Of a DNA stretch of 64,000 nt, positions 5,414-14,507 are shown piece after piece (position 1 is the first letter of the stretch; each line of letters begins with the position of its first letter). Source of the DNA: Pseudomonas cichorii (GTDB lineage Bacteria; Pseudomonadota; Gammaproteobacteria; Pseudomonadales; Pseudomonadaceae); contig NZ_CP074349.1 in NCBI RefSeq assembly GCF_018343775.1, forward strand, positions 2,780,001-2,844,000. The letters run 5' to 3'. The notes beneath the pieces were generated by a model. The model ran no database searches and was not told where the DNA came from. It saw nothing but the letters and a program-made list of their open reading frames with translations. Both the position numbers and the translations under genes were made by a program.

Positions 5414-5525
5414 AAAAAAAAGACCCGGCAAAAAGCCGGGTCAAAAACCGTGATTAGCCTGATGAGGAGATAATCCGGGAGTCGACCTAAGACTCCTGGG
5501 TTATCCGCCAGTCTCGCGACCAGCT
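5414..5525 (-). ncRNA. prrF: PrrF-type iron-responsive small RNA
   Basis: The minus strand from about 5525 to 5414 reads GCTGGTCGCGAG..., then the conserved antisense core ATTATCTCCTCATCAGGCTA, then GGTTTTT and a terminator hairpin GACCCGGC-TTTTT-GCCGGGTC with an eight-U tail. This is the PrrF sRNA of fluorescent pseudomonads, made under iron starvation when Fur leaves the promoter; it acts with Hfq to repress iron-rich proteins such as SodB and TCA-cycle enzymes. Length (~112 nt), core, terminator and Fur-box promoter all agree. Pseudomonads outside P. aeruginosa usually carry two separate copies; only one is in this window. The 5' end is estimated from the promoter. A 75-codon reading frame across it is judged non-coding. 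Confidence 0.95.
5422..5442 (-). terminator. Rho-independent terminator of prrF
   Basis: An 8-bp GC-rich stem (GACCCGGC / GCCGGGTC) with a five-base loop is followed on the minus strand by eight consecutive T at 5421-5414. This is a textbook intrinsic terminator. Confidence 0.95.
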
Positions 5526-5531
5526 GATGCA

Positions 5532-5559
5532 ATAATAATCATTATCATTTGCAAGTCAA
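5532..5559 (-). promoter_or_regulatory. prrF promoter with overlapping Fur box
   Basis: On the minus strand TTGACT (5559-5554) is followed after 16 nt by TATTAT (5537-5532), a good sigma-70 promoter. Between and over the -10 lies AAATGATAATGATTATTATT, a strong Fur box at about 5550-5532. Fur-Fe2+ bound here would block RNA polymerase. Confidence 0.9.
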
Positions 5560-5635: not shown

Positions 5636-7600
5636 TCACATGTCCTGCATTTCTACCAGCAACATTCCTTCGCTGACCATTTCTCCTTCCTGGCAATGTA
5701 ATGCCGCAATCACGCCTGCCTGCGCGGCACGAATGCTGTGTTCCATTTTCATGGCCTCAAGCACTACCAGTTGTGTACCCGCCTCAACCTGCTGACCCGC
5801 TTGCACCAGAACGCGCACGATGCTGCCATTCATGGGGGCAGTAAAGCCGCCTTGCCGGGTTTCACTGGTGCTGGTTGCCGCGATGGGGTCCATGCGTCTG
5901 ATCGCATGCACTTCACCTTGCCACTTGAGGTACAGCTTTTCGCTCTGGCGTATGGCCAGGTGTTGATGACGAACGCCATTGCTCTCCACCACCAGTCGCT
6001 CGCCGCTCCACTGCAACAGGGCTTCGCTGCTGCGACGCAGGCGGACGACTTTCATCTGGTCCTTGCACTGCAAGTGAAGGTCGATCTGATCGGGTAGCCC
6101 GAAGCGCAGGCCTGTGTTTGAACTCCATGGCGAGTGTTGGTCCTCCGTGCAGATACGTGAAGGTTCGCTCTGGATAAAGGCTTCGGCGGCGGCCTGCCAG
6201 AACTCTTCGGTCAATTCGCCTGTGTCAGGCAGCAAGTGCTCCTTATGGCGAGGGATGAATCCGGTATCCAGCTCGGCGGCAGCAAAGGCCGGATGGCCAA
6301 TGATGCGCTGCAAAAAGGGCAGATTGGTTTTCACGCCGCCCACTGCGAACTCATCCAGCATGGTCAGCAGTCGCAGGCGTGCTTCTTCACGGTTTTCGCC
6401 CCAGGCAATCAGCTTGCCCAGCATGGGGTCGTAGAACGGCGAGATGCTGTCGCCCTGGCTGACGCCGCTGTCGATCCGCCAGCCTGGGCGGGGAAGGGGC
6501 TCGCGATAGAGGTCGAGGGTGCCGGTGGCGGGCAGAAAGTCCTTTTCCGGGTCCTCGGCATACAGGCGCACTTCGATGGCGTGCCCGTTCAGGGGGACTT
6601 GCTCTTGAGTGATTGGCAGTACCTCGCCAAGGGCGACGCTGAGCTGCCACTGCACCAGATCAAGCCCGGTGATGTATTCGGTCACCGGGTGCTCGACCTG
6701 CAGGCGGGTGTTCATCTCCATGAAGAAGAACTCGCCCCGCGAATCCAGCAGAAATTCCACGGTGCCTGCACCCACATAACCGATGGCCTGGGCTGCCCGG
6801 ACGGCGGCTTCGCCCATGGTCTGGCGCAATTGCGGGCTCAGGCCCGGAGCCGGCGCTTCTTCGACGACTTTCTGGTGGCGGCGCTGTATCGAGCAGTCCC
6901 GCTCATTGAGGTAGAGGCAATGCCCGTGCTGGTCGGCAAACACCTGAATCTCGATATGGCGGGGTCTGAGCAGGTACTTTTCCACCAGCATTCGCGAGTC
7001 GCCAAACGAGGACTTGGCTTCGCGCTGCGCCGAAGCCAGGGCCTCGGCCAGTTCGCTGTCTTTCTCCACAATCTTCATGCCCTTGCCGCCACCACCTGCG
7101 GTGGCCTTGAGCAGCACGGGGTAGCCGATACGTTCGGCAGCGGTACGAAAGGTGTCCAGATCCTGGGCGGCACCATGATAGCCAGGCACCAGCGGGACTC
7201 CGGCAGCTTCCATCAAGGATTTGGCGGCGGACTTGCTGCCCATGGCTTCTATGGCCGAAGCGGGCGGGCCGATAAAGATCAGTCCGGCGTTTTCAACGGC
7301 CCTGGCAAATTCGGCGCTTTCGGACAGAAAACCGTAGCCGGGATGTATCGCCTGAGCACCGCTGGAGCGGGCGGCGGCGATCAGTTTTTCGATGTGCAGG
7401 TAGCTTTCTGCTGCCTTGCTCCCGCCCAGGTCCACCCGAATGTCCGCTTCACGGCTGTGGCGTGCTTCCCGATCAATGGCGCTGTGGACGGCGACAGTGG
7501 TCAGCCCCAATTGTTTGGCGGTGCGCATGATGCGACAGGTGATTTCGCCCCGGTTGGCAACCAGCAGCGTGGTCAGAACAGGCTTGGCCGGGGCGTTCAT
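5636..7600 (-). CDS. liuD: Methylcrotonyl-CoA carboxylase, biotin-containing alpha subunit
   Basis: The 654-aa alpha subunit charges its biotin with CO2 using ATP and passes it to LiuB, converting 3-methylcrotonyl-CoA to 3-methylglutaconyl-CoA in leucine breakdown. The biotin-carboxylase N-terminus (LLVANRGEITCRIMRTAKQL), the glycine-rich ATP-grasp loop GGGGKGMK and MEMNTRLQVEHPVTE are present. The C-terminal biotinyl domain has LEAMKMEHS, with K618 as the biotin site. Start ATG 7600 is chosen because it overlaps the liuC stop as ATGA, has AAGGA upstream and begins the conserved region; a longer frame to 7639 would run into liuC. It is the last gene of the liuABCD unit. Acyl-CoA carboxylase relatives exist, but pairing with liuB, liuC and liuE makes this assignment secure. 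Confidence 0.96.
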   Translation of the reverse strand: MNAPAKPVLTTLLVANRGEITCRIMRTAKQLGLTTVAVHSAIDREARHSREADIRVDLGGSKAAESYLHIEKLIAAARSSGAQAIHPGYGFLSESAEFARAVENAGLIFIGPPASAIEAMGSKSAAKSLMEAAGVPLVPGYHGAAQDLDTFRTAAERIGYPVLLKATAGGGGKGMKIVEKDSELAEALASAQREAKSSFGDSRMLVEKYLLRPRHIEIQVFADQHGHCLYLNERDCSIQRRHQKVVEEAPAPGLSPQLRQTMGEAAVRAAQAIGYVGAGTVEFLLDSRGEFFFMEMNTRLQVEHPVTEYITGLDLVQWQLSVALGEVLPITQEQVPLNGHAIEVRLYAEDPEKDFLPATGTLDLYREPLPRPGWRIDSGVSQGDSISPFYDPMLGKLIAWGENREEARLRLLTMLDEFAVGGVKTNLPFLQRIIGHPAFAAAELDTGFIPRHKEHLLPDTGELTEEFWQAAAEAFIQSEPSRICTEDQHSPWSSNTGLRFGLPDQIDLHLQCKDQMKVVRLRRSSEALLQWSGERLVVESNGVRHQHLAIRQSEKLYLKWQGEVHAIRRMDPIAATSTSETRQGGFTAPMNGSIVRVLVQAGQQVEAGTQLVVLEAMKMEHSIRAAQAGVIAALHCQEGEMVSEGMLLVEMQDM

Positions 7601-10055: not shown

Positions 10056-11219
10056 TCAGCGGGTCTCGTTGAACAGTTCGCGGCCAATCAGCATGCGCCG
10101 GATTTCACTGGTGCCTGCGCCGATCTCGTAGAGCTTGGCGTCGCGCAGGAGGCGACCGGCCGGGAATTCATTGATGTAACCGTTGCCGCCCAGAATCTGG
10201 ATGGTATCCAGTGCCATTTGCGTGGCCCGTTCGGCGCTGTAAAGGATGATCCCGGCGGCATCCTTGCGAGTGGTTTCGCCGCGATCGCAGGCCTGGGCGA
10301 CGGCATACAGATACGCGCGGCTGGCATTCATCTGGGTGTACATGTCCGCGACCTTGCCCTGAATGAGTTGGAACTCGCCAATGCTCTGGCCGAACTGTTT
10401 GCGGTCGTGGATATAAGGCAGCACCACATCCATGCAGGCCTGCATGATCCCGGTCGGGCCGCCAGACAGTACGACGCGCTCGTAATCCAGGCCGCTCATC
10501 AACACCTTCACGCCGCCATTGAGCGGCCCCAGCAGGTTTTCTTCCGGGATTTCCACGTCATCGAAAAACAGCTCGCAGGTATTGGAGCCACGCATGCCGA
10601 GCTTGTCGAACTTGTTGCTGCGGGTGAAACCCTTCCAGTCGCGCTCGACGATAAAGGCACTGATGCCATGTGCAGCCTGTTCCGGGTCGGTCTTGGCGTA
10701 GATCACATAGGTGTTGGCGTCCGGGCCGTTGGTGATCCAGGTCTTGCTGCCATTGAGCACGAAACGGTCGCCATGCCGCTCGGCCCTCAGCTTCATAGAC
10801 ACCACGTCCGAGCCGGCATTGGGTTCGCTCATGGCCAGGGCGCCGACATGTTCGCCACTGATCAATGCGGGCAGATAACGGGCTTTCTGCGCCGGGGTAC
10901 CATTGCGATTGATCTGGTTGACGCACAGGTTCGAGTGCGCCCCATAGGAGAGGGCGACTGAGGCCGACCCGCGACTGATTTCTTCCATGGCGACCACGTG
11001 GGCCAGGTAGCCAAGGCCTGCACCGCCATACTCTTCGCTGACGGTAATGCCCAGAAGGCCCATTTCTCCGAACTTGCGCCACATATCGGCCGGGAACAGG
11101 TTGTCCTTGTCGATCTGTGCGGCGCGTGGGGAGAGTTCGGACGCGACAAAGGACCGGGTCTGGTCACGCAACATGTCGATGGTTTCGCCCAAGGCGAAGT
11201 TCAGGCTGGGGTAGATCAT
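10056..11219 (-). CDS. liuA: Isovaleryl-CoA dehydrogenase
   Basis: A 387-aa FAD acyl-CoA dehydrogenase that oxidises isovaleryl-CoA to 3-methylcrotonyl-CoA, feeding electrons to ETF. It has [13 protein letters not shown] (FAD/substrate loop, ~128-139), GSKTWITNG (157-165) and [15 protein letters not shown] (243-257). The glutamate E247 there is in the helix-G position used as catalytic base by isovaleryl-CoA dehydrogenases instead of the C-terminal glutamate of most relatives, which supports the substrate. The C-terminus has [20 protein letters not shown]. First gene of liuABCD, with a LiuR-type palindrome 42-59 nt upstream and the crc-type sRNA behind that. Full length. Confidence 0.96.
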
Positions 11220-11260
11220 GAATAGCGCTCCAGTTTTATTATTGGCGGATTGGCTATGAC

Positions 11261-11278
11261 CTTTACGTTAACGTAAGC
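11261..11278. promoter_or_regulatory. LiuR-type operator before liuA
   Basis: TTACGTTAACGTAA (11263-11276) is a perfect palindrome inside CTTTACGTTAACGTAAGC, 42-59 nt upstream of liuA. MerR-family LiuR regulators bind such ACGT-containing dyads in liu promoters. Related dyads precede liuR itself at 13276-13318, supporting the assignment. Confidence 0.75.
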
Positions 11279-11349
11279 CTGGAATTGCCAAGGTGTCAAT
11301 GTCGGAGGGCGAACAGGGGAAAGAGGAGGGAGATTGTGGGGAATGCCGG

Positions 11350-11728
11350 AAAGCACGAAGGGGAGCCTGGGCTCCCCTTCAAGGTTTCTTTGCATGCTCT
11401 TTTTTGTTTTTCGGGAGGCCTTTTATTGTTTTTGGCGACCTGGCCCTTCACATCTTTTTTGAGCGACCCCCATTCGGGATCAAGAGCAAACGTATTTTTT
11501 TGAGCGCTGATATCGCTTTTATCGTGTCGATCCAACCAGTTCCGGAGCTACCTGAAGGTAGTTTTATTGTTCTCTGCCTGGTTGCGAGTACCCTTTCGCA
11601 AGGGCCTCTAAAAGCTATCCACTCCAAAAAAATCTGTTAGCTGCGCCTCTGTCCGTGTTGTTCTTGTTATGTCAGAGCCGATACGTATTGTTTTTATTGG
11701 ATTGCTGCGTTTTCTTGTTCTTGTTGTA
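11350..11728 (-). ncRNA. crcY: CrcZ/CrcY/CrcX-type sRNA (sequesters Hfq/Crc to relieve catabolite repression)
   Basis: The minus strand from about 11728 to 11350 (~375 nt) has no credible gene but carries at least six A-rich CA motifs recognised by Hfq/Crc: 11727-11710 (ACAAGAACAAG), 11699-11685 (AATAAAAACAATAC), 11670-11655 (AACAAGAACAACAC), 11572-11561 (AACAATAAAAC), 11435-11419 (AAAAACAATAAAAGG) and 11413-11398. It starts 12 nt below a strong sigma-54 promoter and ends in a GC-rich hairpin. Crc-antagonist RNAs of pseudomonads are 350-410 nt, sigma-54/CbrB-dependent, and titrate Hfq away from target mRNAs when poor carbon sources are used. From memory, crcY of P. putida lies beside the HMG-CoA lyase gene mvaB, as here. 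The exact paralogue name (crcY or crcX) is less certain than the family. Confidence 0.88.
11357..11380 (-). terminator. Hairpin at the 3' end of the crc-type sRNA
   Basis: GAAGGGGAGC (11357-11366) pairs with GCTCCCCTTC (11371-11380); including the inner C-G pair the stem is 11 bp. The tract after it on the minus strand (GTGCTTTCC) is only weakly U-rich, so the end is approximate. Confidence 0.7.
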
Positions 11729-11739
11729 CAAGAGATATA

Positions 11740-11754
11740 GCAGAACCCGTGCCA
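11740..11754 (-). promoter_or_regulatory. Sigma-54 (RpoN) promoter of the crc-type sRNA
   Basis: The minus strand reads TGGCACGGGTTCTGC, matching the consensus TGGCAC-N5-TTGC at every position but one, with GG and GC correctly spaced for -24/-12. Start would be near 11728. CbrB-dependent crc sRNAs use exactly this promoter class. Confidence 0.88.
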
Positions 11755-11837
11755 GTTTTTGCGAAACCCTTTAAAAGCGGGGCTTTGGCGGGATTCTGGA
11801 GGCTGAGGCGCTTGCCCGTCAGCCATTGAATGTTTCC

Positions 11838-11880
11838 GTGTTACCCGTTTTCACTCAACTGATCTTGGCGAGGGTAACAC
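11838..11880. promoter_or_regulatory. Inverted repeat upstream of the sigma-54 promoter, candidate CbrB enhancer
   Basis: GTGTTACCC (11838-11846) and GGGTAACAC (11872-11880) are perfect 9-bp inverted arms 25 nt apart, 110-152 nt upstream of the predicted sRNA start, an enhancer distance typical for sigma-54 activators. The TGTTAC/GTAACA core resembles the CbrB site as I remember it. It lies in the 44 bp after the liuE stop. Confidence 0.7.
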
Positions 11881-11924
11881 TCTGTGACAAGTTGCCGCAC
11901 CGGCTCGCCGACCAATGACCCTTC

Positions 11925-12824
11925 TCAAACGGGCAGACGAGCTATAGCCACCCTGGACCCGTTGCGGCGTTCCAGCACGGTACAGATGCGCTGGCCAGCC
12001 GCGATCAGCGGATCCAGGTCGATGCCAGTGTCGATACCCAGGCCGCCGAGCATATACAGCACGTCCTCTGTCGCCACATTGCCGCTGGCACCCTTGGCGT
12101 AAGGACAGCCGCCAAGTCCGGCAACCGAGCTGTCGAAAACCGCGATGCCTTCCAGCAGACTGGCGTAGATATTGACCAGTGCCTGGCCGTAGGTGTCGTG
12201 AAAATGCCCGGCGAGTTTGCCCCGGGGAATCTGCCCGGCGACCACGTTGAACAGCTCCCGTGTGTCGGCGGGTGTGCCGATGCCGATGGTGTCGCCCAGA
12301 GACACTTCGTAGCAGCCCATGGCGATCAATTCGTTGGCCACGGATGACACCTGTTGGGGGAGAACCTTGCCTTCGTACGGGCAGCCCAGTACGCACGACA
12401 CATAACCTCGCACGCGAATGCCATGCAGATGCGCCGCCGCCATTACCGGCAGGAAACGCTCCAGGCTTTCGCTGATGGAGCAGTTGATATTGCGCTTGGA
12501 AAAGGCTTCGGAGGCTGAAGCAAATACCGCCACCTCACGAACTCCGGCCTGCAGCGCATCTTCAAAACCTTTCAGATTGGGGGTCAGTGCTGAATAGATG
12601 ACACCGGTTTGAGGTTGGAGCCTGGCAAAGACTTCTGCAGAGCCGGCCATCTGCGGCACCCATTTGGGGGATACGAAACTACCGGCCTCGATGTGCTTCA
12701 GTCCTGCGGCTGTCAGGTCCTCGATCAGTTTCACCTTGTCCGAAATGCTCACCGGATGCGCTTCATTTTGCAGGCCGTCTCTGGGGCCGACTTCCACCAG
12801 GCGAACGCGTTGAGGTAAATGCAT
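11925..12824 (-). CDS. liuE: Hydroxymethylglutaryl-CoA lyase
   Basis: The 299-aa lyase cleaves HMG-CoA to acetoacetate and acetyl-CoA, the last step of leucine degradation. Family motifs are VEVGPRDGLQNE (metal and substrate site, ~11-22), SLGDTIGIGTP, HFHDTYGQALVN (metal-binding histidines) and GLGGCPYAKGASGN with the active-site cysteine near residue 237. Full length, start ATG 12824, 50 nt after the liuR stop. In many pseudomonads liuE ends the operon; here it comes first after liuR and is split from liuA by the sRNA. A C-terminal extension is absent. Also called mvaB. Confidence 0.96.
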   Translation of the reverse strand: MHLPQRVRLVEVGPRDGLQNEAHPVSISDKVKLIEDLTAAGLKHIEAGSFVSPKWVPQMAGSAEVFARLQPQTGVIYSALTPNLKGFEDALQAGVREVAVFASASEAFSKRNINCSISESLERFLPVMAAAHLHGIRVRGYVSCVLGCPYEGKVLPQQVSSVANELIAMGCYEVSLGDTIGIGTPADTRELFNVVAGQIPRGKLAGHFHDTYGQALVNIYASLLEGIAVFDSSVAGLGGCPYAKGASGNVATEDVLYMLGGLGIDTGIDLDPLIAAGQRICTVLERRNGSRVAIARLPV

Positions 12825-12874
12825 GGCGGTTGTACCTCATTTTTTGTTGAGGTTTATTGTTTATATTTTTGATA

Positions 12875-13255
12875 CTAAAGGGTTTTATCCAGCGCAGCCC
12901 TGCAGCGTTCCTCTGCGGTATCCAGCTCCAGCTGCATCTGCTGAATATCCAGAAGCTGCTGCTCCAACTGGTTGCGGCGCTCTTCGATCTTGCCCAGCAT
13001 GCTGTGTAACTGCTTCTGATTGTCACCGTGAGGGTCGTACAGCTCGATCAGCTCCCTGCATTCAGCCAGGGAGAAGCCGATGCGTTTACCGCGCAGGATC
13101 AGCTTGAGGGTGACTTTGTCACGGGGGGAGTAGATACGCTCCAGGCCCCGTCTTTCAGGGCTGAGCATGCCTTGTTCCTCGTAAAAGCGAATGGCGCGGG
13201 TAGTGATATCCAGTTCGCGGGCGAGGTCGGAGATGCTGTAGGTCGGGCTATTCAT
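12875..13255 (-). CDS. liuR: MerR-family regulator of the liu cluster
   Basis: A 126-aa MerR protein: winged HTH YSISDLARELDITTRAIRFY at residues ~5-24, then EEQGMLSPER and a dimerisation coiled coil around residues 85-118 (KIEERRNQLEQQLLDIQQMQ). There are no clustered cysteines, so it senses a small molecule, expected to be a branched-chain acyl-CoA or related intermediate, rather than a metal. It heads the liuR-liuE transcript. Palindromes in its own promoter (13276-13318) and before liuA indicate autoregulation and control of liuABCD. Length and context fit LiuR. Confidence 0.92.
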   Translation of the reverse strand: MNSPTYSISDLARELDITTRAIRFYEEQGMLSPERRGLERIYSPRDKVTLKLILRGKRIGFSLAECRELIELYDPHGDNQKQLHSMLGKIEERRNQLEQQLLDIQQMQLELDTAEERCRAALDKTL

Positions 13256-13275
13256 GGGGCGCTCGGCGGGGGAAA

Positions 13276-13318
13276 CCTTTGAGTTAACCTAAGGCTGGCT
13301 TGACGTATACGTCAAGCC
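13276..13318. promoter_or_regulatory. Tandem LiuR-type operator dyads upstream of liuR
   Basis: Two dyads lie 21-63 nt upstream of liuR. The outer, GGCTTGACGTATACGTCAAG plus CC (13297-13318), is a perfect 22-bp palindrome; the inner, CCTTTGAGTTAACCTAAGG (13276-13294), is imperfect and closer in core to the liuA operator. Both share the ACGT/GTTAAC flavour of LiuR sites. Confidence 0.65.
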
Positions 13319-13337
13319 GGTACCGCTCTGCAGAGTC

Positions 13338-13367
13338 AAAGTTAAAGCTAGAACTAGCTTTAACTTT
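13338..13367. terminator. Perfect 14-bp inverted repeat after the LysR gene
   Basis: AAAGTTAAAGCTAG (13338-13351) pairs perfectly with CTAGCTTTAACTTT (13354-13367) around a 2-nt loop. It lies between the LysR stop at 13410 and the liuR operators, in AT-rich DNA. No clear U-tract follows in the LysR direction, so it may be a terminator or another regulatory dyad. Confidence 0.45.
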
Positions 13368-13409
13368 TAAATTTAAATCTATATTTATCAGTTATTTGAG
13401 TCATATAGC

Positions 13410-14339
13410 TTATGCTGTTTCTGTCTTTTTTTCCTGTGCGGTAACCCGCTGGCACAGTTCGATAAGCTGCTCGCGCATCCAGCGATTGGCCGGATCCTGG
13501 TCGGTGCTTTCGTGCCAGTACAGATGGGTTTCCACTGCCGGAACATCGCTGACCGGCAACTGCGCATAGTGCAGGTCATGACGTCGGGAAAAGCGCTCGG
13601 GGACGGTCATGACCATGTCGGTCTGTTGCAGCACCTGGGTCGCCATCAGGTAGTGCTGGGAACGCAAGGCGATCTTGCGCTGGATTCCCATCTTGCCCAG
13701 CGCCAGGTCCACATGCCCAAGGCCGCTGCGACGGCTGGAAATATGAATGTGCGCCTGCGCCAGATAGTCATCCAGATTGAAGGCTGCCTTGCCTGCCAGA
13801 GGATGGCCTTTGCGCATGGCGCAGACGTATTTGTCTTCCATCAACTTGACATGCCGTACCTGCGGATCGGTATTGAGAGGCGCATCGACGGCGAAGTCCA
13901 GGCGCCCTGCGGCCAGTTCCTTGGTGGTTTCGCGACGTTTGGACAGGAAGCTTTCGATGGTCACTGCCGGGGCCTGACGCCGCAGGCGCTGAAACAGCAG
14001 GGGCAGGATCACCGCTTCGGTGAGGTCGGTCATGCTGATGCGGTAGTTCTTGCTGGCCTGCAGCGGATTGAAAATCCGGCTTTCCTGCACCGACACTCGC
14101 AGTAGTGACAAGGCATTGCGCACCGGGCCGATGATGTTCTGGGCCATGGGCGTGGGCACCATGCCCTGTGCCGTGCGCACGAACAGCGGATCGTTGAAGG
14201 TTTCCCGCAGTCGCGCCAGGGCGTTGGATACCGCTGGCTGGGTAATACCCACGATCTGGCCGGCTCGTGTCAGATTGGCTTCGGTGTAAATGGCGTCGAA
14301 GACAATGAAAAGATTGAGATCAACCTTGCTCAGGTTCAT
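13410..14339 (-). CDS. LysR-family transcriptional regulator
   Basis: A 309-aa LTTR: N-terminal winged HTH (residues ~5-64, with AGQIVGITQPAVSNALARLR) and a periplasmic-binding-like effector domain (~90-300). The branch, with DLNLFIVFDAIYTEANLTRA at the start, is the NodD/LeuO/SyrM-like group. ATG 14339 is chosen because AGAGGC lies upstream and the family N-terminus begins there; a GTG at 14372 would add 11 unrelated residues. It is divergent from the acyl-CoA dehydrogenase at 14508, which is its most likely target by the usual LTTR layout. The inducer is unknown. Confidence 0.9.
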   Translation of the reverse strand: MNLSKVDLNLFIVFDAIYTEANLTRAGQIVGITQPAVSNALARLRETFNDPLFVRTAQGMVPTPMAQNIIGPVRNALSLLRVSVQESRIFNPLQASKNYRISMTDLTEAVILPLLFQRLRRQAPAVTIESFLSKRRETTKELAAGRLDFAVDAPLNTDPQVRHVKLMEDKYVCAMRKGHPLAGKAAFNLDDYLAQAHIHISSRRSGLGHVDLALGKMGIQRKIALRSQHYLMATQVLQQTDMVMTVPERFSRRHDLHYAQLPVSDVPAVETHLYWHESTDQDPANRWMREQLIELCQRVTAQEKKTETA

Positions 14340-14507
14340 TGGAGGCGCCTCTCGTTGTTCTTGTAGGGTCACTGCTTATGCCGCAGCGTAGCCCGATCAT
14401 ATATTGGTTATGAATGTTTATATACGCCGAGAATAGATTAGATAAATGCCGGTGGGTTCTTTAGCATCCTTTCCATGACCTCCATTCCCTTGAGAAGGTA
14501 GCTGCCG
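14340..14507. promoter_or_regulatory. Divergent LysR / acyl-CoA dehydrogenase promoter region
   Basis: The 168-bp gap between two divergent starts holds an AT-rich stretch at about 14397-14447, where both promoters and an LTTR T-N11-A site would be expected. I could not pick a single convincing operator by eye. Confidence 0.4.

Follow-up and report, generated by a model that had tools for sequence, protein, structure and literature searches.

The stretch between liuE and liuA in Pseudomonas cichorii is almost certainly the crcY gene, which, judging from its sequence, would produce a CbrB/sigma-54-driven RNA of about 400 nt that captures Hfq/Crc. Within the analysed window (64,000 nt of contig NZ_CP074349.1), the Rfam model of the CrcZ family (RF01675) matches positions 11325-11724 of the minus strand in cmscan with 333.3 bits (E 8.8e-93), far above the gathering score of 95 bits, and the match is full length, covering model positions 1-398 of 398. 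The first-pass annotation, made from the letters alone, had proposed a CrcZ-family small RNA here and suggested a covariance-model search as a check. The match, together with a promoter that appears to be of the CbrB/sigma-54 type, bears this proposal out. The bounds given at that time were 11350-11880; the lower end of the RNA lies at 11325, 25 nt beyond 11350. The extent of crcY thus follows from the RF01675 match, recovered also in a whole-genome search, and its 5' end is likely near 11728, counted from the GG of the sigma-54 element, in agreement with the first-pass annotation. We gave no weight to a 115-codon open reading frame with a GTG start on the opposite strand.

The RNA lies about 200 nt behind liuE, on the same strand. 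The product of liuE (11925-12824, minus strand) is a hydroxymethylglutaryl-CoA lyase according to NCBIfam NF004283 (473.9 bits, cut-off 246), and we take mvaB and liuE to be two names of the gene for this enzyme. Since P. putida crcY lies directly behind mvaB (PMC6292655), the same position here identifies the RNA as CrcY. The earlier reading had singled out this position as notable. It is in fact the ordinary place of crcY in the genus, found in 29/29 liuE-linked loci, and the copy in this window is an ordinary CrcY orthologue at its usual place.

Promoter, CA motifs and proposed function

The near-perfect -24/-12 element noted at the outset, TGGCACGGGTTCTGCT, is indeed present at 11754-11739 of the minus strand as judged by sequence pattern, and an element of the form TGGCA[CT]-N6-TGC begins 27-33 nt upstream of the match in all 71 family copies that we collected from the genus. 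Further upstream, the inverted repeat GTGTTACCC/GGGTAACAC, which had been picked out for its enhancer-like distance, contains with zero mismatches the two CbrB subsite hexamers as defined in PMC6296734: the predicted forward subsite TGTTAC (F1; 11879-11874, minus strand) and the predicted reverse subsite GTAACA (11844-11839, minus strand). They lie 155 and 120 nt upstream of the RF01675 match, or about 150 and 115 nt before the start. As for the repeat itself, 0.58 repeats of that spacing with at most two mismatches are expected in the window, and 41 of 100 shuffles have at least one. The F hexamer is found in 70/71 copies, the exception being a second copy in one genome (G001, see below).

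The second R hexamer of crcZ promoters, searched as GTAAC[AG], is absent from the crcY promoter. An IHF-like site with at most one mismatch is present 59-62 nt upstream in 25/29 crcY copies; the four liuE-linked copies without it are those of this genome, G018, G020 and G022. No such site is recognisable at -59 to -62 of the window copy, where the best match has two mismatches and lies at -107, so this crcY promoter may be weaker. An ANR site has been published for the crcY promoter of P. ogarae F113 (PMC12552145); we rejected a counterpart in the window promoter, as the best match has four mismatches.

The minus strand of crcY carries seven exact AANAAYAA motifs, two of which overlap, leaving six separate stretches, in line with the original count of at least six CA motifs. 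They are AAGAACAA at 11715-11722 and 11658-11665, AAAAACAA at 11688-11695 and 11404-11411, AACAATAA at 11564-11571, and the overlapping pair of AAAAACAA and AACAATAA at 11423-11433. Dinucleotide shuffles of the 400 nt contain 0.46 such motifs on average, and none of 5000 reaches seven. Six A-rich stretches have been described in P. aeruginosa CrcZ, which titrates Hfq (PMC4063720).

A terminal hairpin had also been pointed out; it lies near the 3' end at 11357-11380 (minus strand), has a short U tract and is present both in the predicted fold and, by eye, among other copies. The RNA as a whole folds with a z-score of -2.62 relative to 100 shuffles. A crude terminator scan of 10900-13600, whose three hits do not exceed the shuffle mean of 3.5, picked up this hairpin just on the plus strand, owing to the shortness of the U tract in the RNA itself, a trait that most copies share by eye. 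Between liuE and crcY the same scan listed no minus-strand terminator, but then it did not recognise the crcY hairpin on that strand. In one relative (G031), the liuE-linked copy is 298 nt long and matches the model ends 1-398 with six motifs kept; it seems to carry an internal deletion.

These elements would fit together as follows. When the preferred carbon source is exhausted, CbrB would bind TGTTAC/GTAACA upstream of the crcY start and drive RNA polymerase-sigma-54 to make the 400-nt CrcY RNA. The A-rich AANAAYAA stretches of CrcY would then bind the distal face of Hfq, together with Crc, drawing Hfq/Crc off catabolic mRNAs and relieving catabolite repression. Part of the CrcY pool may come from read-through of liuR-liuE, and the liuA mRNA, with AATAATAA in its leader, may be among those released. 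For CbrB activation, Hfq/Crc binding and relief of repression we draw on work in other species, such as the report that P. putida crcY is bound and activated by CbrB (PMC6296734). The closest known system, P. putida CrcY (PP3540b), belongs to the same family, lies behind the HMG-CoA lyase gene and has a sigma-54/CbrB promoter (PMC6292655, PMC6296734). For P. putida the comparison draws on these publications; the copy in the window differs in that liuA follows about 105 nt downstream and the IHF-like site is weak.

Family copies in the genome and beyond

The genome (5.98 Mb, one contig), searched as a whole, contains three copies of the CrcZ family. A crcZ near cbrB had been predicted, and such a copy exists between cbrB and pcnB (C1:889996-890386). 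Genes for an NtrC-type regulator and a large sensor kinase adjoin it, which by position we take to encode CbrB and CbrA; for both proteins NCBIfam finds general relatives below their cut-offs. The third copy (C1:4235079-4235500, plus strand of its locus at 7080-7501) lies between a gene for a choline-type substrate-binding protein, whose model score is below the cut-off, and a hydrolase-mlaA pair. Hfq and RpoN are encoded in the genome, as is an ExoIII-family Crc-like protein whose gene is divergent from a pyrE-like gene. The Crc gene sits divergent from pyrE, and the names PcnB, MlaA, Crc and PyrE are again our assumption from position.

Across 36 genomes of the genus, this one included, we found 71 copies altogether: 36 between cbrB and pcnB, 29 behind liuE, five at the third site and one second copy elsewhere in G001. 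This last copy lies away from liu and cbrB, beside what by eye are genes for an AraC-type regulator and oxidoreductases; it has a sigma-54 element, and exact TGTTAC is absent from the 230 nt upstream.

In the tree, cbrB-linked copies fall on one side and liuE-linked plus third-site copies on the other (100/99), with a long-branch warning that applies also to the point where the cbrB-linked half meets the liuE-linked one. The window copy groups with the liuE-linked copy of G018 (100/100), and this pair next joins the liuE-linked copies of G020, G022 and G026 (96/79). The window copy thus shares with CrcZ the Rfam family, promoter plan, A-rich motifs and size, but differs from it in tree side and locus, and the genome has its own crcZ. 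CrcX of P. syringae is reported to belong to the same family; here a third family copy occupies a different locus, and purely by elimination it may correspond to CrcX. Third-site copies fall inside the wider liuE-linked group, which suggests that CrcX arose from CrcY. We did not retain this origin, because the data remain compatible with each group forming a single clade (AU p 0.357 and 0.194).

That the window copy might be CrcX, or an additional copy specific to the lineage, deserves consideration given three family copies in the genome and a tree that brings third-site and liuE-linked copies close together. The position directly behind liuE decides the matter, as with P. putida crcY and mvaB (PMC6292655), and on this ground we reject the CrcX label for this copy. 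The third copy, moreover, has a site of its own, between the choline/betaine-type binding-protein gene and the hydrolase-mlaA pair, occupied in 5/36 genomes, and a single clade of third-site copies is compatible with the data (AU p 0.357, computed without the two G001 rows). We regard this explanation as very improbable.

Slightly less probable still is that the copy is an inherited one in decay, out of use since the other two suffice. Redundancy and the weak IHF-like site would fit such a history, but the full-length match, the intact promoter and enhancer hexamers and the seven CA motifs speak against it, as does the same architecture in the relative G018 (LiuE identity 95%). We give the least credence of all to the idea that the small RNA signals are incidental and that the liu operon has here, for the most part, a 3' UTR or a leader. 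In its favour, no minus-strand terminator was recognised from liuE to the RNA, in a scan blind to the RNA's own hairpin as well, and the liuA start lies about 105 nt past the match. Yet the RNA has its own sigma-54 promoter and CbrB hexamers, and these are kept even at loci in which liuA is not close by.

Related RNAs are found beyond the family Pseudomonadaceae. We searched 115 genomes from the order and obtained CrcZ matches with E values of at most 1e-5 in 18, of which 14 lie outside Pseudomonadaceae (7 families). Three of these 14, all from one family (f2), reach 101-111 bits and exceed the Rfam cut-off; the remaining 11 stay below it, two of them as short, partial matches. Genomes with such RNAs include G036, G081 and G116, with loci L103, L104 and L105. 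The RNAs of L103 and L104 lie beside pcnB and that of L105 between cbrB and pcnB. Each has a TGGCAC-type sigma-54 element and five to seven AANAAYAA motifs; upstream, GTAAC is present at all three loci, and TGTTAC at L103 and L105 but not at L104. A review describes CbrAB as unique to Pseudomonadaceae (PMC8871633).

Gene order and predicted Hfq/Crc sites at the liu locus

Upstream of liuE lies a gene for a MerR-type regulator (12875-13255, minus strand), presumably liuR from its position and conservation; its product has no NCBIfam match at 1e-20. Downstream of crcY, the open reading frame at 10056-11219 (minus strand) is, by synteny, probably liuA, encoding an acyl-CoA dehydrogenase of the isovaleryl-CoA type. 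Acyl-CoA dehydrogenase models match its product, all below their cut-offs, and the exact name is our assignment. The order liuR-liuE-crcY, on one strand and with both gaps below 400 nt, is found in 29/29 liuE-linked loci. The distance to liuA varies: 97-127 nt in six loci (including the window), 353 nt in one and 1.8-3.3 kb in 14, with liuA not within the fetched stretch in the remaining eight. In one genome (G029), crcY and liuA are separated by a gene on the other strand (L035, 5830-7527, minus strand) that by eye is AMP-ligase-like. In the window, a PrrF small RNA (RF00444, 156.5 bits) lies at 5414-5559 of the minus strand, about 75 nt downstream of the co-directional liuD, and a second PrrF is found at C1:904085-904233.

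In the seven genomes without a liuE-linked copy, liuE lies behind liuD. Whether a liuE-linked copy is there or not was the criterion by which these sets of 29 and seven loci had been formed; a better test is provided by named loci chosen by LiuE similarity alone (identity at least 71%; the best 34 of 80 listed, out of 590). Among these best 34, our own profile finds the RNA in 20/20 loci with the liuR-liuE order and in 0/14 with the liuD-liuE order. Rfam, run on 13 of them, matches ten, all liuR-liuE, and the three that do not match are liuD-liuE. Some loci may belong to both the named and the unnamed sets, and the counts take no account of relatedness, so the tie between crcY and gene order may reflect few events. 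An exception is A. vinelandii, in which crcY is described between convergent genes and a processed form was reportedly not observed (PMC6292655).

Leaders of the liu genes contain similar motifs. A predicted Hfq/Crc site, AATAATAA, lies in the liuA leader at 11236-11243 (minus strand), 16 nt before the start codon, so that the decoy adjoins a likely target. Another, AACAATAA, is predicted in the liuE leader at 12854-12861 (minus strand). In addition, AAGAACAA is found at 14355-14362 of the minus strand, just upstream of what by eye is the likely internal start of a LysR-type gene next to liuR, and is possibly an Hfq/Crc site as well.

We scanned leaders from -60 to +10 for strict AANAAYAA, taking named loci from among the best 34 listed. 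In the liuA leader the motif is found in 9/21 crcY loci, 3/7 loci without crcY and 5/9 named loci; its presence in just 9/21 crcY loci we keep as a weak point. For liuE the corresponding counts are 3/29, 0/7 and 4/34, and for liuB 0/20, 0/7 and 1/21. The lysR and acad leaders each give 1/23, 0/1 and 0/12. No strict motif was found in leaders of liuR (0/29, 0/7 and 0/22), liuC (0/7, 0/7 and 0/16) or liuD (0/5 crcY and 0/1 named loci), nor in those of cbrB and pcnB (0/35 each in cbrB-linked loci). In P. aeruginosa, liuA, liuB, liuC and LiuR are reported to be affected at the post-transcriptional level when Crc is lost (PMC6235884), and leucine genes are said to need CbrB and to be under Crc/Hfq control relieved by CrcZ (review, PMC8871633). 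A link between leucine and the Hfq/Crc system is thus known in outline.

A conserved palindrome and a possible leucine input

Two palindromes flank this arrangement: TTGACGTATACGTCAA in the liuR promoter (13300-13315) and TTTACGTTAACGTAAG before liuA (11262-11277). Because they are placed before both liuR and liuA, we consider them putative operators of LiuR, which in diverse proteobacteria represses the use of branched-chain amino acids (PMC3223726). The form TTKACGTWWACGTMAA is found at most 150 nt before liuR in all 28 readable crcY loci, 23 times exactly and five times with one mismatch; in the 29th locus the available stretch starts too near liuR for a reading. Upstream of liuE, acad and lysR in the same loci, the best match has five to eight mismatches, as does that before cbrB and pcnB in cbrB-linked loci. 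Counting exact matches only, TTKACGTWWACGTMAA occurs at one place in the genome, before liuR. An operator search with the liuA form finds near liuR only a site with three mismatches (13279-13292), and the wider form an exact site at 13300-13315.

The liuR palindrome is not special to crcY loci. It is exact in 19 of the 22 named loci with liuR (among the best 34), the other three having two, five and eight mismatches, and in the seven loci without crcY it is exact in five, with one mismatch in one and three in another. Before liuA, the palindrome is found with at most one mismatch in 21/21 crcY loci, with the 14-nt core exact in all 21, and in 1/7 loci without crcY, in most of which liuA lies directly behind liuR.

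If transcription reads through from the palindrome-bearing liuR promoter into crcY, as reported for P. putida, leucine use would supply CrcY. Such read-through had been raised in the first-pass annotation and is not novel: in P. putida, it proceeds from upstream genes into crcY and yields the processed form CrcY* (PMC6292655). There, crcY behind mvaB is preceded by PP3539, called a LiuR homologue (PMC6292655). We tentatively propose that CrcY has two inputs, one through CbrB and sigma-54 and the other through LiuR-controlled read-through of liuR-liuE-crcY, although we consider this rather unlikely. The long transcript would start at a LiuR-controlled promoter, and leucine catabolism would raise the level of the decoy, in the processed CrcY* form, independently of CbrB. 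Hfq/Crc would thereby be loosened from liuABCD and other mRNAs, and this coupling would be the reason why crcY and the liuR-liuE order stay together. Against the proposal, the upstream promoters of P. putida are called constitutive (PMC6292655). A crude scan of 10900-13600 recognised no sigma-70-type promoter, compared with 1.3 in shuffles.

A search with most subscription journals outside its scope found no publication that pairs crcY with liuE, and leucine-to-CrcY coupling through a LiuR palindrome is possibly new. What makes the analysis useful is that crcY and the liuR-liuE order are strictly tied across the loci we examined, together with the conserved palindrome before liuR. If the two-input proposal is true, some Pseudomonas would keep a second decoy RNA as a pathway-specific supply beside the global, CbrB-driven one.
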